The position numbers and the translations under genes are program-made. A stretch of DNA of 33,819 nucleotides from Bacteroidota bacterium (GTDB taxonomy: Bacteria > Bacteroidota > Rhodothermia > Rhodothermales > JABDKH01): the NCBI GenBank assembly GCA_020437385.1, contig JAGQWL010000270.1:1-33819 (forward strand), given 5' to 3'. A model generated the notes under the pieces. The model worked only from the letters and a program-made list of their open reading frames with translations, was not told the origin of the DNA and did no database searches. This document shows, piece after piece, positions 9,179 to 30,150 of the stretch (the first letter of the stretch is position 1; each line of letters starts with the position of its first letter).

Positions 9179-9580
9179 ATGCGATTTGTCGTACCCCTAC
9201 TGTTCATCGGCCTGATGCTGAGCGTTGCCGTTCCGAACGGCGCCGCCCAGGATCGCGACGTTGTGAAGTCGATCGAACGCGCGCTCAACAAGGGCGACGT
9301 GCCGGGGCTGCTGGCATTCGGCTCGGATCGTATTGCCGTCGCGGTGTTCGGTGAGGCGCGTGAATACAGCCACTCCCAGGCCGAGTACGTCCTGAAGGAT
9401 TTCTTCAAGACGCACCGCGTTACATCGTTCTCGTTTGATGATCGATCGCAGACCGACAGGGGCATGTTCGTCCAGGGCCGGCTGCGCTACCGCGGTGCCG
9501 ATGAGCCCCTCCAGGTGTTCGTCAGACTGCGCATGCGATCGGACGAGTGGGAGCTTCGCGAGATCATTATTCGGAAGTAA
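9179..9580 (+). CDS. Secreted DUF4783-like protein
   Basis: The 133-aa product starts at the ATG at 9179, which places a signal peptide at residues 1-23 (cleavage near GAA before Gln24). The in-frame extension upstream to 8744 is not protein-like and overlaps the divergent promoter region. The mature part is a small alpha+beta domain: an N-terminal helix with 'ALNKGDVPGLLAF', then YSHSQAEYVLKDFF, and alternating strands ending WELREIIIRK. This pattern matches DUF4783, a family of small periplasmic or secreted proteins mostly in Bacteroidota with an NTF2-like appearance. Function is unknown. It is followed after about 57 nt by the large histidine kinase on the same strand, so a link to sensing at the envelope is possible but unproven. 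Confidence 0.8.
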   Translation: MRFVVPLLFIGLMLSVAVPNGAAQDRDVVKSIERALNKGDVPGLLAFGSDRIAVAVFGEAREYSHSQAEYVLKDFFKTHRVTSFSFDDRSQTDRGMFVQGRLRYRGADEPLQVFVRLRMRSDEWELREIIIRK

Positions 9581-9636
9581 TATCCGGGCAGCCGCTTGCC
9601 CGCCCACTTCGCCACCGTTTCAAATTTCCGCGTCCC

Positions 9637-12600
9637 GTGAACCGCCGATTCTGGATCTTCGGACTACTGATCGCGCTCCTCGCGCCGGCGACGCTGCTGA
9701 TTCGGAACGCCCGCATCGACGCGCTGAACCGGCATGAAGACGCACTCCGGGCTGCGGCGGTCACAGACGCTTACCGGCTGATCGACGATGATCTGCGCGC
9801 GATTCAACTGCAGATGCTCGCGATTGGCAGCGACATCGCCGGGGAAGAAGCCGTTCGTCGGGGACTCGATGCTGCCCGCTCCGTCGACGGTCCGACAACC
9901 GATCCGTCGCTCGTGGACTTCGTCGCGGGTCTCTCGCTCCCAGATCAGCTCTCGATCGAACTGTACACGCCGGTTCCGAAGCTTGTCGCCTGGCTTGGCG
10001 CCTCCATGCCGATGGACGACGCACCCGCGCAGCCGCAGTTCCTCGACCGGTACGTGACCGCCGTGGCAACGGACGGTGACCGCCGGGACGCACTCGCGAT
10101 CTGGGTGCCGGTTCGCGACGGCCCCACCGTCTACGGCGTTGTGCGGGTCCTCCGGATTCTCCGGTCGATCCCACCCGTGCAGAATACGTTTCTGCAGGAC
10201 TACGACATTACCGACACGTGGTCGCGCAAAACGCATCTCGAGCTTCGGACCGTGTACTCCGCTCCGTTCGATGACCTGCTCCCGGCGACCGGCGATGTGC
10301 GCCTGCTGCAGGGCATCGATGGCCGGTCTCTCGGACGCGTTTTTGTCGACCGCCCGGGAGGCGAATTGTTGATCCGGAACGTTCGGGATCGCTACGATGC
10401 GGTCGCCGGATTCTGGGTTGCGCTTGCGTTTGCCTGGGTCCTCGCCGGAGCAGCTGCCGCTTACCGCAAGGCAGCCCGGGTCGAGCGTCTTTCCCGCGTC
10501 TCCATCCGGTTCACGATTCTCATTGGTCTGCTCATCGGCTACCGATACGTGCTGCTGACGCTCGATCTTCCGAATCGCCTGCAGCGCGGCAAGTCGCCAC
10601 TGGCGCCGCTCTACGATCCGGTTCATCTGGCATCGACCCTTTTCGAAGGTGCCATGCGCTCGATCGGCGACGTGCTGCTCTCGTCCATCTTCGTTGCGGT
10701 CGCCGGGCTCGCCTTTTTTCATTTTTCGGCGACGATACTCGCCAGGACCGGTGAGGCGAAGCAATCGGATTCGTCGCGCGGTCGTCTTGCCGCCACCGCC
10801 CTCATTGTGCTGTCGTCGGTGCTTGTGACGTCCGTCGTGGTGATCCTGACGCGGGTCAGCAGCCAGGTCATCACAGACAGCACACTGGACTTCTTTTCGC
10901 GGACGGGGCTGCTGCCGGAAAACCTGGTGCTGATCGTCTTCGTGTCGCTGATTCTACTCGGCGCCGGCACCGCAATCCTTTTCGCGGCCGGAATGATGGG
11001 GTTGATCTCCGGCTATCGATCCTACAGCGCGAACGGTGGGGCGGGCATCGCAAGGCTGCTCATCCCGATCGCGCTTTCGCTTGCGGTCGTTGCGTTGGTG
11101 GCCGCAAAGGCGGAACTGTTTGTTCGCGCGGCGCCGTGGGTGGGGCCAACTGTGATCGCGCTTCTTATCGGAGCCGGGCTCCTGACGTTCCGTTGGGCCG
11201 CGGTCGGGATACGCGCGCTCACCCTGCGAAACATCCTCCTCGCGATCTTCTGGATCACCGCAATCGTGTATCCGCTTCTGTTTCGCGGATTGGAGCAGCA
11301 ACGGCGCAACCGGCTCGTCGACGCGGTCGAGTCTTTCGATGACGGGCGGGACCCACGCGTGTTGTTCGCAATCGATCGGATCCTCCTCGACGCAGTCGAT
11401 AACGACGCGCTTCGCGCGGAGCTTGCCGACGCCGAGGTGGGCCCTCCGCAGAACGAGTCGGATCGCGTTCGAAGCTCGTCGGCAGATTCGATCGCGACAA
11501 ATATTCTCCGCCGGTCGCTTCTCGCGTCCATGGGAGCCTACGAGGTCAGCCTCACCATTCTCGATGCCTCGGAAAACCCGATCGGCCGATATTATGAGGC
11601 CGATCAGCGCCTTACAACCTCAGCCCTCGCGGAGCTCGAGCGAAACGACTTCGAGATCATGAAGGAGATGCGCGAGGATTCCGATGTGTCGGGGCCGCTC
11701 GTGGAGCCGATGACCGGCCGCCGGGAGCGGGAGCGCTTCAGGTACCAGGGTATTGCACCGGTTGATGCAGACGACATGACGATCGGATGGGTGATGGCAA
11801 GCGCCGAGCCCCGCAGCGTCGTGGAAGAAGCTGTCACGCCGTTCCCGCGGGTCCTCGTTCCCGCCGGATTCTACGGCAACCTCGAGGGCGATGTGTCGCT
11901 GGCGGAATTCCGCGACGGCGTGCTCGTGCGAAACACGGGCAGCGGGTTTGGCAGGTACCGGCTCTCAGAAGACGCGCGCCGCGAACTCACGACGGAAGCG
12001 GATGTCTGGCGTCGCGAGATCGACAGGGGAAAGGTCTACGACACCTATTACCACCGCCGGCCGGGGAGCGGTACAATCGGGCAGGGTTCAGACATCGTAC
12101 TGGCATCGAGACTTCAGGCCATCACCGTGTTCGACCACCTCTATTATCTGCTCCGCCTCACGGTGTCCGGACTGTTCCTTGGAATCCCGCTCTACATCTT
12201 CGGGTTGTTCCGTCGCCGGCTCGCCGGACTGCTTCCTGCGCCGGAGGTGCGGTTCCGCGACAAGGTGTTGAACGCGTTCTTCGCGGTCGGACTCATCACC
12301 GTCGCGGCGATGGGCTTCGTGGGTCTTCAGGTCGTCACTGGAGAGAATGAGCGGGCGATCGAGAGCTGGCTGAAGCAGCATCTCGAGCGCGTGGAGAAGA
12401 CGCTCTTTCTCGAAGCGCAAGCGGGCGAGCTGGCCTACAGTGTCATGGACCGGACGTCGATCGACTCCCTTGCCGCGCGCGTCGGGCTCGACCTCAATCT
12501 CTACCGCGGCACCGAGTTGGTTGCCAGCAGCCGCCCGCAGTTGGTGGAGGACGGCCTGATCGACGAACGCCTTCCGATGCCTGCGTACAAGGCGCTGTTT

Positions 12601-13728
12601 TTTGATGGATTCCGTTTCACGGCCACCGAGGAGAATATCGGGACGTTCACGTATCCGGCAGGCTTTCGCGCGCTGACGAACGAGGAGGGCAAACCGTATT
12701 ACGTGTTGTCTGTCCCGACGCTTCCCGAGCAGGAACGGATCGAAGAGGAGCGCGCGCGCACGGTCGCCTACCTGTTTGGGGCACTCCTACTGCTTGTCAT
12801 CGTCGTGCTCGTCACGGCATCGATCCTCGCGAACGCGCTCACGAGGCCGATCATGCGACTGCGCCAGGGCCTCGAGGCGGTTTCGCGCGGCCAGTTTACG
12901 CGGATCACGCCGTTCGAGTCGCGAGATGAGTTCGGAGAACTCGTGCGAACGTTCAACAGCATGCAGGATCAGCTCGCGGACAGTCGGGTGAAGGTTGCCC
13001 AGCAGGAGCGGCAGCTCGCCTGGCGGGAAATGGCGCGGCAGGTTGCCCACGAGATCAAGAACCCGCTCACACCGATGAAGCTTTCGATTCAGTATCTCCG
13101 AAGATCGTTTGATTCGGAGAAGGATCGGGACTCGGCGGAATTCGGCAGTCTCTTCAAACGCATCACGACCACACTGGTCGAGCAGATCGACGCGCTGGCA
13201 CGCATCGCCAACGAGTTCTCGACGTTTGCGCGGATGCCCCAGCGCGTCATCGAAGATCTCGACTTGAACGAGGTCGTACGAGAAGCAGCGACGCTGATGG
13301 AGGCAGAGGAGGGAATATCGATCCGCGTGAAACTGTTCGACCGCCCACTGGTCGTCAAGGCAGATCGCGAGGAACTCCGCCGCATCTACATCAACCTGAT
13401 CAAGAATGGTATCCAGGCTGTTCCCGATAGCCGGCAGGGAAAGATTGAGATTGTGACACGTGCGGAACGCGCAAACGACGAATCAGGCAGCGCGATGGCG
13501 TACAGCGAGGTCAAGGACAATGGCGCTGGAATTCCCTCTGAGCTGCAGGAGAAGATCTTCGAGCCGAACTTCTCGACAAAAACGAGTGGGACGGGCCTCG
13601 GATTGGCGATTGTCCGCAAGAGCATCGAAGATCTGAACGGGGAGATCGGCTTCGAGACGCGGACGGGCAGGGGGACAACCTTCTGGATCCGGCTTCCCCT
13701 GACACACGATGACGAACCCGCGTCGTAA
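9637..13728 (+). CDS. Large multi-TM sensor histidine kinase (NtrY-like core)
   Basis: The 1363-aa reading begins at the GTG at 9637, just before the first membrane segment. An earlier GTG at 9547 would overlap the upstream gene and adds a non-membrane leader. By eye there are about 12 membrane segments: one near 5-22, eight clustered at 258-549, then near 835-858, 880-900 and 1045-1068. Two probable extracytoplasmic regions lie between them (about 550-834 and 901-1044), plus one after TM1. The cytoplasmic part has a HAMP domain (about 1068-1120), a HisKA H-box AHEIKNPLTPMKLS with His1138, and a HATPase_c domain: N-box INLIKNG, G1 DNGAGIP, F-box FEPNFSTK, G2 GTGLGLAI. The H-box matches NtrY-type kinases. 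The family phosphorylates a response regulator, but none is encoded in this window. The signal sensed is unknown, and the membrane region is far larger than in NtrY proper. Confidence 0.9.
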   Translation: MNRRFWIFGLLIALLAPATLLIRNARIDALNRHEDALRAAAVTDAYRLIDDDLRAIQLQMLAIGSDIAGEEAVRRGLDAARSVDGPTTDPSLVDFVAGLSLPDQLSIELYTPVPKLVAWLGASMPMDDAPAQPQFLDRYVTAVATDGDRRDALAIWVPVRDGPTVYGVVRVLRILRSIPPVQNTFLQDYDITDTWSRKTHLELRTVYSAPFDDLLPATGDVRLLQGIDGRSLGRVFVDRPGGELLIRNVRDRYDAVAGFWVALAFAWVLAGAAAAYRKAARVERLSRVSIRFTILIGLLIGYRYVLLTLDLPNRLQRGKSPLAPLYDPVHLASTLFEGAMRSIGDVLLSSIFVAVAGLAFFHFSATILARTGEAKQSDSSRGRLAATALIVLSSVLVTSVVVILTRVSSQVITDSTLDFFSRTGLLPENLVLIVFVSLILLGAGTAILFAAGMMGLISGYRSYSANGGAGIARLLIPIALSLAVVALVAAKAELFVRAAPWVGPTVIALLIGAGLLTFRWAAVGIRALTLRNILLAIFWITAIVYPLLFRGLEQQRRNRLVDAVESFDDGRDPRVLFAIDRILLDAVDNDALRAELADAEVGPPQNESDRVRSSSADSIATNILRRSLLASMGAYEVSLTILDASENPIGRYYEADQRLTTSALAELERNDFEIMKEMREDSDVSGPLVEPMTGRRERERFRYQGIAPVDADDMTIGWVMASAEPRSVVEEAVTPFPRVLVPAGFYGNLEGDVSLAEFRDGVLVRNTGSGFGRYRLSEDARRELTTEADVWRREIDRGKVYDTYYHRRPGSGTIGQGSDIVLASRLQAITVFDHLYYLLRLTVSGLFLGIPLYIFGLFRRRLAGLLPAPEVRFRDKVLNAFFAVGLITVAAMGFVGLQVVTGENERAIESWLKQHLERVEKTLFLEAQAGELAYSVMDRTSIDSLAARVGLDLNLYRGTELVASSRPQLVEDGLIDERLPMPAYKALFFDGFRFTATEENIGTFTYPAGFRALTNEEGKPYYVLSVPTLPEQERIEEERARTVAYLFGALLLLVIVVLVTASILANALTRPIMRLRQGLEAVSRGQFTRITPFESRDEFGELVRTFNSMQDQLADSRVKVAQQERQLAWREMARQVAHEIKNPLTPMKLSIQYLRRSFDSEKDRDSAEFGSLFKRITTTLVEQIDALARIANEFSTFARMPQRVIEDLDLNEVVREAATLMEAEEGISIRVKLFDRPLVVKADREELRRIYINLIKNGIQAVPDSRQGKIEIVTRAERANDESGSAMAYSEVKDNGAGIPSELQEKIFEPNFSTKTSGTGLGLAIVRKSIEDLNGEIGFETRTGRGTTFWIRLPLTHDDEPAS

Positions 13729-22949: not shown

Positions 22950-24443
22950 ATGACCCGTCGCACGAAGATCGTCTGTACCCTTGGCCCGTCCTCATCGGAT
23001 CGCGAGACGATCGCCCAGTTGATCGGAGCCGGCATGGATGTCGCCCGACTGAACTTTTCCCATGGCAGCCACAGCGGCCACGCGGAACGCATCACGATTA
23101 TCCGCGAAGAGGCCGCGCGCGCCGGCAAGGTTGTACCAATCTTGCAGGACCTGCAGGGCCCCAAGATCCGGACGGGTCCAGTGGAGAACGACATGGTGCT
23201 CATCCGCAAGGGAGAGCAGCTCATTCTGACCGCCGAGCAGATGGAGGTCGGCACGGCGGAGAAGATCCATGTCAGCTACGACTCGCTTGCCGAGGAGGTG
23301 AAGCCGGGCGGCCGCGTGCTGCTCGACGACGGACTGCTCGAACTCGAGATTCGCGAGGTTGTGGGCACCGATGTGATCACCGAGGTCATTGTCGGGGGGC
23401 CGTTGCGAAGCCGCAAGGGAGTCCATCTGCCGCTGATGCACAACTCGCGACCGTCGCTGACGCAGAAGGATCTCGACGACCTCGAATTTGGAATTTCGCA
23501 GGACGTCGACATCATCGCGCTCTCGTTTGTTCGAAGCGAGACCGACGTCGAGGCGGTTGTGTCGCGGGTAAGGGAGGCCGGGTGCCGCGCGACCGTCGTT
23601 GCCAAGATTGAGAAACCGGAGGCCGTCACACGCTTCGACAAAATCCTGCAGGTTGCCGACGGCATCATGGTCGCCCGCGGCGATCTCGGAATCGAGATGC
23701 CGCTCTCGCAGGTGCCGATCACGCAGAAGCGAATCATCAAGAAATGCCTGCAGGCCGCGAAGCCGGTTATCACCGCAACGCAGATGCTCGAGAGCATGAT
23801 GGACAACCCGCGGCCGACGCGTGCAGAGGTCTCGGATGTCGCGAACGCCGTTCTGGACGGCACCGACGCCGTCATGCTGTCAGGCGAGACGGCGGCAGGG
23901 AAGTACCCTGTCCAGACGGTCGAGGTGATGGCCCGCATCATCGTCGAGACCGAGAAGAACTACAACCTCGGCAAGGTCGATCACTACATCCGAACCGCGA
24001 CATCGGATTCCATCGTCACCGACTCGGTCAGCTTCACAGCGTTTGAGCTCGCCGAACACGTCGGCGCCAAGGCCATCGTGTGCCTGACTGCCAGTGGAAC
24101 CACCGCTCGCTCCATCGCCCGTCACCGGCCGGACATCCCCGTATACGCCTTCACGGATGATGATCATGTGGTCAGGCAATTAGCACTGCTCTGGGGAACA
24201 AAAGCATTTCAGATTCCTTTCCAGAAAGACACCGATTCGGGGGTCTGGACGGTCCATTCGCGTCTGCGCGAGGAAGGACTCGTTGAGGACGGAGACCTGA
24301 TCGTGATCACGGCGGGAATGCCCCTGCCCACGAAGGGTCGGACGAACATGGTCCATGTCAGTCGAATCGGTGCCCAGCTCTCTGCCACATCGGCATCGGA
24401 ATCGGCATCGGAATCGGCATCGGCATCGGAATCAAACGCCTGA
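22950..24443 (+). CDS. pyk: Pyruvate kinase
   Basis: The 497-aa enzyme transfers phosphate from phosphoenolpyruvate to ADP in the last step of glycolysis. The start is the ATG at 22950. Family signatures follow in order: TKIVCTLGPSS, MDVARLNFSHG, the B-domain around GGRVLLDDGLLEL, the active-site signature VAKIEKPEAV with the catalytic Lys, MVARGDLGIEM, ATQMLESM, and MLSGETAAGKYPV. The C-terminal allosteric domain includes VCLTASGTTARSIARHRP. After the normal end near ...NMVHVSRIG, about 20 residues of Ser-Ala-Ser-Glu repeats (TSASESASESASASES) are encoded by a hexamer tandem repeat. This tail is unusual for the family and has no expected catalytic role. The gene is probably led by its own promoter and precedes the SprE-like gene by 90 nt. 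Confidence 0.96.
   Translation: MTRRTKIVCTLGPSSSDRETIAQLIGAGMDVARLNFSHGSHSGHAERITIIREEAARAGKVVPILQDLQGPKIRTGPVENDMVLIRKGEQLILTAEQMEVGTAEKIHVSYDSLAEEVKPGGRVLLDDGLLELEIREVVGTDVITEVIVGGPLRSRKGVHLPLMHNSRPSLTQKDLDDLEFGISQDVDIIALSFVRSETDVEAVVSRVREAGCRATVVAKIEKPEAVTRFDKILQVADGIMVARGDLGIEMPLSQVPITQKRIIKKCLQAAKPVITATQMLESMMDNPRPTRAEVSDVANAVLDGTDAVMLSGETAAGKYPVQTVEVMARIIVETEKNYNLGKVDHYIRTATSDSIVTDSVSFTAFELAEHVGAKAIVCLTASGTTARSIARHRPDIPVYAFTDDDHVVRQLALLWGTKAFQIPFQKDTDSGVWTVHSRLREEGLVEDGDLIVITAGMPLPTKGRTNMVHVSRIGAQLSATSASESASESASASESNA
24389..24433 (+). repeat. Hexamer tandem repeat in the pyk 3' end
   Basis: Seven consecutive hexamers of ATCGGC or ATCGGA plus a partial ATC run from 24389 to 24433, in the order C-A-C-A-C-C-A at the last base. 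In the pyk frame they encode alternating Ser-Ala and Ser-Glu pairs. Gain or loss of units by slippage would change the tail by two residues without breaking the frame. Confidence 0.9.
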
Positions 24444-24533: not shown

Positions 24534-27500
24534 ATGCGCCGAAACCGAATCCGACGCCACGTACCGTTCACGGCAGGTCTGCTGCTGGCCGCGCTGCTAT
24601 TCAGCGGATGCAGTTCGACCTCCTTCATCGGCGGCCGTTTCGACGACTTCACAGCTTTCTACAACACCTTCTATAACGCACGAAAGTCGTTTGACAAGGG
24701 CGAGAAGGGTGTCCTCGAACGGACCGGCCCCGTCGATCGCCAGATCTATCGCCCCATCTTCCCCGTCTACGAAACGGCTGCTCCGTCACGCGACTTCGAG
24801 GACGCGATCCGAAAAAGTGCGGACGTCCTGCGGGACCACGGAACGTCCAAATGGGTCGACGATGCGTTGCTGCTGATCGGGAAGTCGTACTTCTATCAGC
24901 AGAACTACTACGCGGCCGAGGAAAAATTCAACGAGGTCATCGCGCTCGAGACCGGGTTGCAGGACGAGGCACGATACTGGCTGGCGCGGACGCTGCTTTC
25001 CGCCAACTCCTATGAAGAGCTCAACGATCTTCTCGTCGTCACCTTCGAGCGTGAGCGATTGTCGAAGAAGTGGGCGGGCTATCTTCGCCTCGTTCAGGGC
25101 GAGCTGTATGTGCGCACAGGGCTGAAGGACGACGCGATCGGGCCATTGTCCCAGGGTGCGAAGTCTGTGAAGCAGAAACGCCTTTCGACGCGGGCCAGCT
25201 ACCTGCTGGGACAGATTCTGGAGTCGCTCGGAAACTATGACGAGGCGATCACTGCGTACAAACGATCGCTGCGCAAGAACTCGGACTTTGATCTTGTGTA
25301 CGCGGCCCAGGTCTCGATCATCCGGGCCGAAGCGGCAAACGGAGATGTCGAAACCGCGCTCAAGGATTTGCGGAAGATGGAGCGCGACGACAAGAACTTC
25401 CAGTCGATGGCTGACCTTCGGGCTGTGCGCGGCCGAATCCTCGCCGAGCACGGTCGCATCGACGAGGCCGAGAACGTCTTTCACGACGTCCTCCGCAGCG
25501 ACGATCGCATCACTCCTGAGGTGAAGGGTGAGATCCACTACCGGTTGGCGACCATCTATCGCGACGTGGATTCGGATTTCATGCTCGCCGCGGCGCACTT
25601 CGATACGGCCGCAACATCGTTGCAGTCGCTCATCGACAAGCGGAACTCCGATGCCCAGAAGTTTGGCTTTTCGGAACCGTTCGTACCCTGGGCCATCAGG
25701 GACGCTCGTGAAGAAAAGGACGTCTTCGGCACGTTCGCTCGCGAGGCGACCGACGTCGCCGAAATGGATTCGCTGCTCTATCTCGGTTCGCTCGATGAGG
25801 CGGCCTTCGAGGAACGGTTAGCGGAGATTCGCAAGCAACGTCGCGAAGAGCTTGCCGAGCTTGCGCGACAGCGCCAGGAGCAGCAGATCGAAACGCAGTT
25901 CCGAGGCGGTGCGGCGGCGGCCGCAGACCGGCAGCAGGATCTCCTCGCACAGAAGACCGGCGGAAGCGGCGCAGCTACGGCAACGGGTGCCGAGTCCGGC
26001 TTCCTCTACCACAAGGACCCGGCCCTCGTGCAGGAAGGACTCCGGAATTTCGTGCAGCGATGGGGCGAACGGCCGCCCGTCCCGGGGTGGCGCTTGAGCT
26101 CGAAGCTGATCGCGGCGGCATCGGCCGCAAAGGCGTCCGGCGAACCGGACAAGAATCTGCTGGCCGCAAAGCAGGCGGCGGGCAATCTGCTTGGCACCGA
26201 CTCTTTCGGGGCCGAGTTTGACGACCTCGATATCTCCCAGATTCCCCGAACCGAAACGGCTCGCGAGGGGATGCGCACGAAACGGGCCGAGGCCCGCTAT
26301 CGCGTGGGTACCGTGCTCTTTCTCGCCATGGATCGTCCGGATTCCGCGGCTGCCTGGTTTCGTACGGTCATCACGGAGGATCCGGACGAGCCAATCGCTC
26401 CAAATGCCTACTACGCCCTTGCCGAGGTGAATCGGGCACTCGGCGACGAGGGCCGGGCGGACGAACTGATGCGGGCTCTCGCGGAAAAGTACCCGGAAGA
26501 ACGCAAGGCATTCATCGTGCAGGACGAAGTTGCCGATGACACGGATCAGGAGGGGATCGAGGAGCGGTACGCCGATCTCTATGACCAATGGCAAGCAGGG
26601 TCCTTCCGGGACGCTGCCGGCGGGCTGGTGGCGCTCGCACACGATGCGGACCCCACGGCCAGGAACGGCGCGGCAACGATTGGCCAGCCAACGAATGGCC
26701 AGCCAACGAATGGCGCCGCATCGAAAGGACCGGCAGCGAATGTTCCGGGATCGGATGTGGACGACGCGGCCAAAGCCCTGTTTGCGGCCGGAAACGTGCT
26801 GATCGACTGGGCCACGACGGATGGCCGAAGCACGGATGAGCCCGTAGAACTCGCCATGACGGATTCTACAGCCATCTGGCTTGGAGTTGCGAAAGTGGAT
26901 TCGGCGGCGACGCGTCCTGTCTTGCCCGAAGATGTTGCGGCTCCGGCGGATTCGAACGTCGTGTCAGGGCAGTCGTCGGCGGCGCCTGACTCAGTCCAGG
27001 CTCAAACGGCAAGTGCGGTGATGGACACGACAGCTGTGCCGGAGGTGCGCGATATTCCGGAACGGTCCGCTGAGGCCGAGAACGGCCTTCCGGCCGATTC
27101 ACTCGGAAGCACCGTTGTGGCCGGGACGGACTCGACGATGTCGGCTGCCGGCACCGTACTTCCGGACGGGATGAGCCTTGTCGGCGTGTCGCCGGAGGCG
27201 ATCCTGAGTGCCGTGTCGTCCAAGTTCGGTCGAACGGATTACGCAGCCGCGGCGGCGAAGCAGCTTGAGGCGGTGAAGGAGATTCGCGCACGCAAGAAGG
27301 CGGTCAGGGATTCGCTCGCGGCCGTCGAAGCGGCGAGGTTGGACTCGATTCGGGCAGCGAACCCCGTCCCGGCGGCAGATTCGCTCGGTGTTGCCGCGAA
27401 TGCGGCTCCGGACAGCGTCCTGGCGGGAGGATTGCCGGACGGCCCCCCGGCGCCAGATACCACTGGCACGGAGGCCGTGAAGCAGCCCCCGACTCCATCG

Positions 27501-27842
27501 CCGAACGAGATGCGTCGCGACGCGGCCGCTCGCGTAAATGCAGATTCCGTGTACGCTGCGGACACGGTCGACATCCCGCCGTACCCGATCGGCGGGGGAG
27601 CGGCTCTCCGGTCGCTGATTGCGCTTCCTGACACTGTTACCGCGGGAGGGATCGTCGAAGTGGCGTTCCTTGTGGACAAGAACGGTGTCACGAGTGATCC
27701 GGAGATCGTCAGCGGCGTTGCGCCGATCGTGGACGATGCCTGCCTGACGGCAGTGCGCCAGATGCGCTACACGCCCGGCAGACAGGCCGGCGTTCCGGTA
27801 GCCGTGCGCATGAGTGTCCGCATTCCGGTGGGAGAGGAATAG
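24534..27842 (+). CDS. SprE/PorW-like TPR lipoprotein with TonB-like C-terminus
   Basis: The 1102-aa product starts at the ATG at 24534. A basic N-terminus and hydrophobic run end in LFSGC (Cys26), a good lipobox. Next comes FDDFTAFYNTFYNARKSF, very like the opening of SprE/PorW lipoproteins of the type IX secretion and gliding system ('YHNxTAxYNxYFNxxE'). TPR-like helical pairs occupy about 95-370 (for example DDALLLIGKSYFYQQNYYAAEEKFNEV). A charged helix is near 425-460 and a second TPR-like block runs to about 665. Residues about 680-1010 are Ala/Asp/Ser/Thr-rich and low complexity, with a 15-bp direct repeat. Residues 1014-1102 form a TonB C-terminal-like domain (GGIVEVAFLVDKNGV, VRQMRYTPGRQAGVPVAV). 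SprE/PorW aids type IX secretion at the outer membrane. The TonB-like end is not part of that family as I know it. No other T9SS gene is in the window. Confidence 0.75.
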   Translation: MRRNRIRRHVPFTAGLLLAALLFSGCSSTSFIGGRFDDFTAFYNTFYNARKSFDKGEKGVLERTGPVDRQIYRPIFPVYETAAPSRDFEDAIRKSADVLRDHGTSKWVDDALLLIGKSYFYQQNYYAAEEKFNEVIALETGLQDEARYWLARTLLSANSYEELNDLLVVTFERERLSKKWAGYLRLVQGELYVRTGLKDDAIGPLSQGAKSVKQKRLSTRASYLLGQILESLGNYDEAITAYKRSLRKNSDFDLVYAAQVSIIRAEAANGDVETALKDLRKMERDDKNFQSMADLRAVRGRILAEHGRIDEAENVFHDVLRSDDRITPEVKGEIHYRLATIYRDVDSDFMLAAAHFDTAATSLQSLIDKRNSDAQKFGFSEPFVPWAIRDAREEKDVFGTFAREATDVAEMDSLLYLGSLDEAAFEERLAEIRKQRREELAELARQRQEQQIETQFRGGAAAAADRQQDLLAQKTGGSGAATATGAESGFLYHKDPALVQEGLRNFVQRWGERPPVPGWRLSSKLIAAASAAKASGEPDKNLLAAKQAAGNLLGTDSFGAEFDDLDISQIPRTETAREGMRTKRAEARYRVGTVLFLAMDRPDSAAAWFRTVITEDPDEPIAPNAYYALAEVNRALGDEGRADELMRALAEKYPEERKAFIVQDEVADDTDQEGIEERYADLYDQWQAGSFRDAAGGLVALAHDADPTARNGAATIGQPTNGQPTNGAASKGPAANVPGSDVDDAAKALFAAGNVLIDWATTDGRSTDEPVELAMTDSTAIWLGVAKVDSAATRPVLPEDVAAPADSNVVSGQSSAAPDSVQAQTASAVMDTTAVPEVRDIPERSAEAENGLPADSLGSTVVAGTDSTMSAAGTVLPDGMSLVGVSPEAILSAVSSKFGRTDYAAAAAKQLEAVKEIRARKKAVRDSLAAVEAARLDSIRAANPVPAADSLGVAANAAPDSVLAGGLPDGPPAPDTTGTEAVKQPPTPSPNEMRRDAAARVNADSVYAADTVDIPPYPIGGGAALRSLIALPDTVTAGGIVEVAFLVDKNGVTSDPEIVSGVAPIVDDACLTAVRQMRYTPGRQAGVPVAVRMSVRIPVGEE
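26681..26714 (+). repeat. 15-bp direct repeat (about 2.3 copies) inside the SprE-like gene
   Basis: TGGCCAGCCAACGAA occurs at 26681-26695 and again at 26696-26710, followed by TGGC. It encodes a GQPTN pentapeptide twice, at the start of the low-complexity linker. The unit length is a multiple of three, so copy-number change keeps the frame. Confidence 0.85.
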
Positions 27843-28026
27843 CGTCTGCAGGTGATTCACGCAGGTGCAGCGACGAATCTAGGAACCTAACAGCGCATTT
27901 CCGGGTTCGCGCAGAGAACCAGCCACCAACGGAATTGGTTCATATCAAGCTGTAAGCGTCGCCATGATGAGGCGGCCGCACCGCGGCATTTTGGCATTCA
28001 CTCCCGAACAGAGCCAGCTCTCGTAC

Positions 28027-30150
28027 ATGGCGGACCAGGAAAGAAACTCGAATCAGCCGAGGGAACGCATCCCGCGCCCCGTTCAACGACCCGGTGAACG
28101 GCGCCCGAAGTTCTGGATGTGGCTGTACCTTGCTGTACTTGTGTTCCTCGGTGTCCACTTGTTTCTGCAGTTTCGCAAGCAGGACCCCAATTCGATCAAG
28201 TACAGCACCTTCCTTGACTACCTGAACAAGGGTTACGTCAAGGAGCTCGTCCTGATTAACGACACGGCAATCGAGGGCAAGTACACCCAGGATGCTATCA
28301 AGTCCGGCAAGGTCGAGTTGGCCGAACCCCCGCGGCAAGACATTCTCTCGGCAGGAGAGACAAAGCCGTCCGACGGATTTGTGACCATCAAGCCGGGCGA
28401 TCACGAATTGACGGCCGTGCTGAAGGACTATAACGACAAGGCTATCGCGGAGGGAAAGCCGGAGGTCGTGTTTTCTGCCCGGAGAGACGAGAACTGGCTC
28501 GACGGCCTGCTGCTGTGGGTCTTCCCGCTGTTGCTGATCGTGCTTTTCTGGGCGTTTATCCTGCGCCGCATGAACCCGAGCTCGCAGGTTCTGAATATCG
28601 GCAAGAACAAGGCGGTGCTCTTCGACGCAATGGGTGAGCACCGGGTCACGTTCAAGGACGTTGCCGGGCTTGACGAAGCGAAGGACGAGATTGTAGAGGT
28701 TGTCGAGTTCCTGAAAAACCCGAAGCGGTTTACGTCCCTGGGGGGCAAGCTGCCGAAAGGCGTGCTCCTCGTAGGACCTCCCGGAACGGGCAAGACGCTT
28801 CTGGCGAAGGCCGTTGCAGGCGAGGCCGGGACCCCATTCTTCTCGCTTTCAGGGTCGGACTTCGTTGAGATGTTTGTTGGCGTGGGTGCAGCCCGCGTTC
28901 GAGATCTGTTCCGACAGGCAAAAGAAAAGGCGCCATGTATCATCTTCATTGACGAAATCGACGCGATCGGACGATCGCGCGGTCGCGGAATGATGATGGG
29001 AGCCAATGATGAGCGCGAAAACACGCTTAATCAGCTGCTGGTTGAGATGGACGGCTTCAACACGGACAAGGGTGTGATCATCATGGCCGCGACAAACCGT
29101 CCGGATGTGCTGGACTCGGCGTTGCTGCGGCCGGGGCGATTCGACCGCCAGGTGCTGATCGACAAGCCGGATCGGAAGGAGCGTGCGGAGATCTTCAAGG
29201 TCCATACCCGGGGAATCACCGTCTCGTCGAATGTGAATCTTTCGGTCCTCGCAAGCCAGACACCGGGATTTGCGGGCGCCGAGATCGCGAACGTGTGTAA
29301 CGAGGCCGCGCTCCTTGCCGCCCGCGAAAACAAGTCGGCCGTCGAGATGGACGATTTTGAAAAGGCGATCGACCGGATCATCGGCGGACTCGAGAAGAAG
29401 AACAAGCTTATTTCTCCAGAGGAGCGGGAGATCGTTGCGTTTCACGAGGCGGGGCACGCCATTACGGGCTGGTTCCTGAAGAACACCGATCCGGTGGTCA
29501 AAGTATCGATCGTCCCGCGTGGGCTTGCCGCCCTCGGATACGCCCAATACCTGCCTGAGGAGCGGTACCTGTACACGAAGCAGGGACTGCTCGATCGGAT
29601 GACGATGGCCATGGGCGGTCGGGTTGCCGAGGAGATCGTCTTTGGACGGATTTCGACGGGCGCCCAGAACGACCTCGAGCGAATCACCAAGATGGCGTAC
29701 GCGATGGTCGTCGACTACGGAATGAGCGAGAAGGTTGGCTATATCAGCTTCAACGTTTCGGGTAATTCCGAAAGTCCGGTCTTCGACAAGCCGTATTCGG
29801 ATGAAACCGCCCGAATCATCGACGAAGAGGCAAAGCGGATCATTGATGAGGTTCGGGAAGGTGCGCGCAGACTACTCACCGAGAAGCGTGCGCTGTTGGA
29901 CGAGATGGCCAAGGTCCTTCTGGAGAAGGAGGTGCTTGGACCGAAGGACCTCGTCCAGATCCTCGGGCCGCGGCCGTTCGGCGAATACGTGACGCTGCAC
30001 GACGAGCACGGGGAGCAGGGAGCGGATGCGGCGTCGGCAGACAAGAATGCGGCGGTCTCTGAAAAGAACGGTTCGGCCGACGGGGCCGACGCGTCGCAGG
30101 GTGACGGCGGTACGTCTCGCGTGGGGCATCCGGAGGGTTCGGAGTCGTAG
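28027..30150 (+). CDS. ftsH: ATP-dependent zinc metalloprotease FtsH
   Basis: The 707-aa reading starts at the ATG at 28027 (MADQERNS). Two tandem ATGs at 27964 and 27967 would add about 20 residues. The protein has two membrane segments (about 30-50 and 156-178) around a periplasmic FtsH_ext domain. The cytoplasmic AAA+ domain has Walker A GPPGTGKT at 250-257, Walker [12 protein letters not shown], the pore loop MFVGVGA and the second region of homology [20 protein letters not shown]. The M41 peptidase has HEAGH at 473-477 and a third zinc ligand Asp549 in NDLERIT. It degrades misassembled membrane proteins and some soluble regulators at the inner membrane. The last 50 residues are a low-complexity Ala/Asp/Ser/Gly tail. 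Length exceeds E. coli FtsH (644 aa) because of a larger N-terminal/periplasmic part and this tail. Confidence 0.95.

Follow-up and report, generated by a model that had tools for sequence, protein, structure and literature searches.

What does a TonB_C domain, known from TonB energy transducers, do at the end of an outer-membrane lipoprotein of the type IX secretion system (T9SS)? The question is raised by a gene on contig JAGQWL010000270.1 from a Bacteroidota bacterium of the order Rhodothermales, class Rhodothermia. The stretch analyzed here, called the window, is this one whole contig of 33,819 nucleotides; the genome comprises 4.69 Mb in 488 contigs. An earlier note, made from the letters alone, had described a SprE/PorW-like lipoprotein fused to a TonB-like end and had supposed that the scaffold carries a TonB-like contact of its own. 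By sequence family, the window protein is an ordinary PorW/SprE. Among its relatives the C-terminus of PorW is a variable slot which holds SPOR, TonB_C or nothing recognized, and this suggests an exchangeable attachment point. The core family is already known; as a variant of it, the protein is new in that SPOR and TonB_C replace each other at its end. The single frame of 1102 codons is present as described and divides as follows:

24534..27842, + strand: PorW/SprE gene with TonB_C tail (ATG start, 1102 amino acids plus stop; NF052312 291.2 bits, cut-off 250)
24534..24611, + strand: lipoprotein signal peptide with lipobox LLFSGC, Cys26 (from the sequence; Cys26 invariant)
24591..26618, + strand: PorW/SprE core of tetratricopeptide repeats (TPR), residues 20-695 (NF052312, TPR models, Protein Data Bank (PDB) and Foldseek matches, AlphaFold2 (AF2) model)
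25899..26219, + strand: low-confidence stretch within the core, residues about 456-562 (predicted local distance difference test, pLDDT, below 50 at 456-496 and 513-562)
26619..27557, + strand: Ala/Asp/Ser/Val/Pro-rich linker, residues 696-1008 (composition; AF2)
26748..26882, + strand: predicted folded island in the linker, residues 739-783 (pLDDT block means 59-88 between 741 and 790)
27171..27359, + strand: predicted folded island in the linker, residues 880-942, best 881-920 (pLDDT block means 79-86 at 881-920)
27558..27839, + strand: C-terminal TonB_C domain, residues 1009-1102 (Pfam stretch 1039-1097 = 27648-27824)

The family assignment is carried by the core. The 291.2 bits were scored with the NCBIfam equivalog NF052312 (T9SS_PorW_SprE) over residues 20-695 and passed its curated cut-off. 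Several TPR models were above threshold in a Pfam scan, and Cys26 was invariant across 11 aligned PorW proteins. The top sequence match in the PDB was Flavobacterium johnsoniae SprE of the Extended Translocon (8gl8_I, E 3e-18). Likewise, 8gl8_I was the top Foldseek match of the AF2 model of the whole protein, which was built on 11 aligned sequences (E 1.2e-15, TM 0.61 by target length). Lipobox, SprE-like opening and TPR blocks, all named in the earlier note, were recovered in this way. The TPR core was confidently modelled; within it the low-confidence stretch at about 456-562 probably corresponds, judging by position, to the Finger Region that PMC10994853 describes for SprE.

The tail was recognized by profile. 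Pfam PF03544 (TonB_C) matched residues 1039-1097 with 32.2 bits in the full protein against a cut-off of 24.6, and scored 36.9 bits on the tail alone. TIGR01352 (tonB_Cterm) did not reach its cut-off (22.8 versus 27.1 bits), and SPOR (PF05036) was not among the Pfam matches of the protein. A joint profile of the order's seven TonB_C tails matched the solved TonB C-terminal domains 2k9k, 6i97 and 6fip, with E-values from 6e-10 for 2k9k, the best, to 2e-9. In a phmmer search with the window tail, TonB_C domains of other proteins were nearest (56.7 bits), followed by a PorW tail of the same family, L054 (46.8 bits). Profile searches for both parts of the protein were positive, and a lipid-anchored TPR scaffold with TonB_C in one gene, as the earlier note had it, is borne out by family, Cys26 and PF03544. 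Structure prediction was of divided value. The predicted order of helices and strands, a-b-b-a-b, fits TonB_C, but confidence was low, with a pLDDT of 50.6 for the tail alone (single-sequence AF2) and about 30-43 within the full model. In a second look with Foldseek the tail matched TonB C-terminal domains (6i97_D Z 2.7, 8rd6 Z 2.4, 7zc8 Z 2.3, 1u07 Z 2.0); these matches carry little weight because unrelated chains have similar Z, the top being 3.2.

Further carriers of TonB_C were encountered. A 979-residue protein of the same genome (L180:1805-4741) has PEGA repeats together with a carboxypeptidase-regulatory-like domain and ends in TonB_C; after PorW, it is the second protein here to carry this domain without being a TonB. 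L200 (G034) and L210 (G163), with 127 and 164 residues, are lipoprotein-like and hardly more than a TonB_C domain. A single frame of about 560 residues (L184/L189, G309:C103:21410-21997) has two TonB_C matches in tandem.

Is the TonB_C tail a private oddity of the window gene? A PorW match was present in 108 of 114 genomes of the order; G370, which has the N-terminal part only, was left out, leaving 107 proteins. In other orders of the class 43 genomes had a PorW match, and 23 were taken. From these 130 proteins 10 were cut by contig ends. The 120 uncut PorW ended in SPOR in 74 cases, in a TonB_C-like domain in 27 and in neither in 19. Labels were assigned with self-built profiles, the SPOR profile being iterated; by itself, Pfam detected SPOR in 51 of the 74 SPOR-labelled tails and TonB_C in 7/7 of the order's set and 9/20 of the set from other orders. 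The PorW equivalog cut-off was passed by all seven relatives scanned, covering all three tail types.

Within the order, TonB_C tails were found in the window's family f1 (3/3 uncut proteins, the window counted), in f3 (3/3) and in f4 (1/1 uncut). SPOR tails occur in families f2, f5, f8-f12, f53 and f54 and in some f7 members; no tail was recognized in f6, in f52 or in many f7 members. In the other orders 20 of the 23 PorW sampled carry a more distant TonB_C-like tail. In a profile-profile comparison (hhalign) it was homologous to that of the order (probability 97.4, E 1.1e-11), and neither TonB_C set had detectable homology with the SPOR tails. The relatives surveyed rule out a private oddity. 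They keep the fusion, and neither separate genes for the two parts nor a lack of PorW signal was met. A picture of uniqueness is not supported: the slot has three states, TonB_C among them, and SPOR is commoner. With the same profiles 20 outgroup proteins from the Bacteroidia side gave no TonB_C-like match (best E 0.24) and no SPOR match below 0.01. Bacteroidia tails as SPOR relatives were rejected (hhalign probability 9.8), and a link to TonB_C was not found either. Among the papers found in searches on PorW/SprE with TonB or SPOR, no title or abstract opening describes such tails; closed journals and database annotations may differ. The word SPOR is absent from PMC10994853 and PMC8754138, and TonB is absent from PMC10994853 (it was not searched for in PMC8754138).

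The linker precedes both kinds of tail. The long Ala/Asp/Ser linker of the earlier note is present at residues 696-1008; however, it is not uniform. It is rich in Val and Pro as well (21% Ala, 8.6% Asp, 8.6% Ser, 9.6% Val, 8.3% Pro), and AF2 predicted folded islands at about 741-780 and 881-920 with pLDDT block means of 68-88. The median distance from core to tail in the order was 311 residues for TonB_C (n = 7) and 308 for SPOR (n = 74); in other orders of the class it was 195.5 (n = 20). Because linker lengths are alike in the order, a shared architectural role of TonB_C and SPOR tails can be argued.

How often did the tail change? A tree of 87 PorW cores was calculated, 20 of which were unlabelled (cut or outgroup), and the groups tested were chosen after the tree had been seen. 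It requires 8 or more switches between tail states. A single SPOR clade was rejected (p 1.4e-6); f1, f3 and f4 as one clade were not (p 0.069), and f1 with f4 gave p 0.42. A second tree, of 52 domains (PorW tails and other TonB_C), was based on only 97 columns. In it the 20 tails from other orders formed one clade (100/98), and the order's PorW tails were intermixed with other TonB_C domains. Approximately unbiased (AU) tests did not reject one clade of all PorW tails (p 0.32) or of the order's seven (p 0.31). From these trees we conclude that the tails were apparently exchanged repeatedly; the AU tests are compatible with one or several gains of TonB_C.

Does the window genome possess the machinery to which PorW belongs? 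SprA is encoded at C273 (1873 bits), and 135 matches to TIGR04183 mark cargo with type A C-terminal domains (CTD). Both were above cut-offs in 8/8 class genomes. A divergent PorK-L-M cluster lies on contig C259 (G000:C259, L176:5846-9783), an assignment backed by gene order. The scores were below NCBIfam cut-offs for the PorK-like protein (GldK 222 bits, cut-off 350) and the PorM-like protein (GldM 59.9 bits, cut-off 180); in the latter the third and fourth GldM Pfam domains were just above their cut-offs and the second below. The GldL-like protein matched GldL_N with E 0.001, below cut-off. A 206-residue gene in the expected place of PorN, after PorM, matched nothing in NCBIfam or Pfam and nothing credible in the PDB. 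TIGR03523, used as a test for PorN without a positive control, matched 0/8 genomes. With the GldN-like and GldL-like proteins of the window genome as queries 2/8 genomes were matched each. Because SprA, the CTD matches and the PorK-L-M-like cluster are all in the genome, a T9SS is, as judged from gene content, present, its motor and ring operon being divergent. Of the components that the earlier note wished to see, SprA and a divergent PorK-L-M were found; for PorN there is the gene without match. Just downstream of the cluster, on the opposite strand, lie genes for an ExbD-like protein, an ExbB-like protein and a protein with HU and SPOR domains (L176:11107-13503). ExbB and ExbD are named here from their sequence; a profile scan was run on the HU-SPOR protein only.

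What may the tail do? In F. johnsoniae, according to PMC10994853, SprE sits beneath the cavity of SprA and holds it. By analogy, the TPR core of the window protein would hold the SprA translocon on the periplasmic side. A C-terminal tether of about 310 residues would present a small docking domain, exchangeable by lineage: SPOR in some, TonB_C in others, D6, which binds PorN, in Porphyromonas, and in some lineages none at all. The window's TonB_C would be a passive contact for a partner in the periplasm or outer membrane, whose extended peptide it would catch as TonB catches the TonB box. The captured partner would keep the translocon adjacent, and TonB_C would not pull. A candidate partner is a TonB-box-bearing outer-membrane protein; the P. 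gingivalis T9SS list in PMC5445135 contains, in the part consulted, the TonB-dependent receptor PG0534. Since SPOR domains are peptidoglycan binders, we infer that the most likely job of the tail is to attach the translocon to some other part of the envelope. The attachment is most simply read as passive, for TonB_C on its own has no means of pulling when it is not anchored in the inner membrane. In the window protein no transmembrane anchor was found, the most hydrophobic stretch being the lipoprotein signal. The TonB-like proteins L188, L194 and L198 of the genome, unlike its PorW, do have an N-terminal hydrophobic helix. An SH[LIV] motif, searched for within the first 120 residues as a sign of an SHLS-type motor motif (SHLS is named in section 8 of PMC12204202), was absent. 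According to PMC10994853, in the passage concerned, F. johnsoniae SprE without F759-P870 secretes normally. An energy-coupling contact is not supported by these data; with no inner-membrane anchor in the protein and a SprE tail that Flavobacterium can do without, an energy transducer is unlikely. Peptidoglycan, PorN or no partner are possible alternatives for the tail. For a PorW/SprE with a long tether and an exchangeable docking domain, TonB_C being the passive contact here, we see about an even chance.

Several points weigh against this. The end may be dispensable because the shortened F. johnsoniae SprE secretes normally, and 19 of the 120 relatives have no recognized tail domain. With 36.8 bits the window tail was the weakest of four scored PorW TonB_C tails (70.6 bits in G309, 61.4 in G030, 59.9 in G034); such a low-scoring tail may be in decay. 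Lastly, if the ligand were peptidoglycan and not a protein, the interchange with SPOR would be no harder to explain.

The last point leads to a clearly less likely alternative, in which TonB_C is itself a peptidoglycan tether that does the job of SPOR and fixes the translocon to the cell wall. The TonB C-terminal domain has been reported to bind peptidoglycan. In most of the order SPOR tails stand at the same place and after the same linker length. PMC6895207 and PMC9239104 describe, respectively, binding of SPOR domains to denuded glycans and peptidoglycan anchoring as common among trans-envelope machines. Against a common task, the two kinds of tail are without detectable homology, and a search of the available papers on the affinity of TonB domains for peptidoglycan found nothing. 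The best-studied ligands of TonB_C are protein peptides, which also counts against a tether to the wall.

It is doubtful, too, that the tail is a dispensable passenger, i.e. that PorW ends tolerate any small domain and the window's is drifting. This would agree with the relatives lacking a recognized tail and with a window tail that scores low and has its nearest relatives among TonB_C domains of other proteins, ahead of PorW tails of its own family. The dispensable end of F. johnsoniae SprE fits as well, and PMC10994853 reports, in the passage cited, that the P. gingivalis PorW end is apparently not required. However, a small domain of one of two kinds was retained after a long linker in 101 of the 120 uncut proteins, and the single clade of the 20 tails from other orders suggests long retention.

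Could a lipid-anchored TonB_C recruit the Ton machinery (ExbB-ExbD-TonB) to the translocon and so couple energy after all? One argument for it is the PorM census, made with a profile from two PorM-like proteins of f1. A PorM-like match was present in just 22/114 genomes of the order although PorW was found in 108; these were f1 with 6/6, f7 with 16/27 (25 of the 27 f7 genomes have PorW) and no other family. The TonB_C-tailed families f3 and f4 are without PorM match, and the discussion of PMC8754138 proposes PorM-PorN-PorW as a powertrain. On the other hand, PorW lacks an inner-membrane anchor, the window's own family has a PorM-like protein in 6/6 genomes, PorM-negative tailed relatives mostly carry SPOR (69 versus 4 TonB_C), and absence of PorM depends on a two-sequence profile. 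TIGR03517 matched only G000 and G309 among eight class genomes, both below cut-off. TIGR03513 (GldL), run on 296 genomes, missed the window's own genome although a GldL-like gene is there; the 76 matches listed include none from the order. Because the GldL model is blind even to the window's own genome, PorM absence is provisional. These searches suggest many class genomes without a recognizable PorM, or with a far diverged one; in most of the order a motor-less T9SS, or one with an unrecognized motor, is possible. PorM-negative genomes had 73 PorW with tail and 7 without, PorM-positive genomes 8 and 9 (Fisher p 1e-4), which is not independent evidence because all nine PorM-positive cases without tail belong to f7. 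Overall, recruitment of the Ton machinery appears quite improbable. Even more speculative, with a very slim chance, is a class-wide scheme: much of the class would have a T9SS without PorL-PorM motor, and the exchangeable PorW tail would be the envelope link, SPOR to the cell wall and TonB_C to ExbB-ExbD-TonB, giving force or position, with the window's family (PorM-like plus TonB_C) as intermediate. An assembly or annotation artefact joining two genes, for which the fragmentation into 488 contigs might speak, is as good as ruled out by the same one-frame fusion in independent genomes including the single-contig G030.

The gene has conserved neighbors:

22950..24443, + strand: pyruvate kinase, upstream (Pfam PK)
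27964..30150, + strand: FtsH protease, downstream (Pfam Peptidase_M41/AAA)

In a named collection of loci (L038-L050) pyruvate kinase was upstream of porW in 13/13 and ftsH downstream in 10/13; in the remaining three the contig ends. Window positions 24355-24440, at the C-terminal end of pyruvate kinase, encode a Ser-Ala-Glu low-complexity tail. Elsewhere in the window a 1393-residue frame (9547-13725) with HAMP, HisKA and HATPase_c at its end is a very large sensor histidine kinase.

How the T9SS translocon receives force and position is an open question; PorW has been proposed as a bridge to the motor ring, and the bridging end is not conserved. The PorW series with SPOR, TonB_C or no tail offers natural, ready-made swaps for testing the role of this end. 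If the patchy distribution of PorM holds, one has to ask what powers secretion in PorM-negative genomes.

Compared with known PorW/SprE proteins (NF052312, 8gl8 chain I, P. gingivalis PorW), the window protein shares the lipobox, a TPR core of about 675 residues and an equivalog score over cut-off, and SprA and type A CTD cargo co-occur likewise. It differs at the end: TonB_C here, a deletable tail in F. johnsoniae, and in P. gingivalis the C-terminal D6, which binds PorN and is missing in other lineages (PMC8754138, in the part concerned). The SPOR-tailed PorW of most families of the order have the same core, linker length and a small terminal domain, peptidoglycan-binding SPOR in place of TonB_C. 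With TonB energy transducers (PF03544) the window protein has in common the C-terminal domain, by profile, and a preceding flexible linker; it stays below the TIGR01352 cut-off, has a TPR scaffold and is held by an outer-membrane lipid anchor, not by an N-terminal transmembrane helix. A further comparison is with PorE, the CpoB-TolB-Pal-like fusion of the T9SS described in section 10 of PMC12204202. Both are outer-membrane lipoproteins with TPR and a C-terminal envelope-contact domain, which in PorE is of the OmpA/Pal type and joined to another core.

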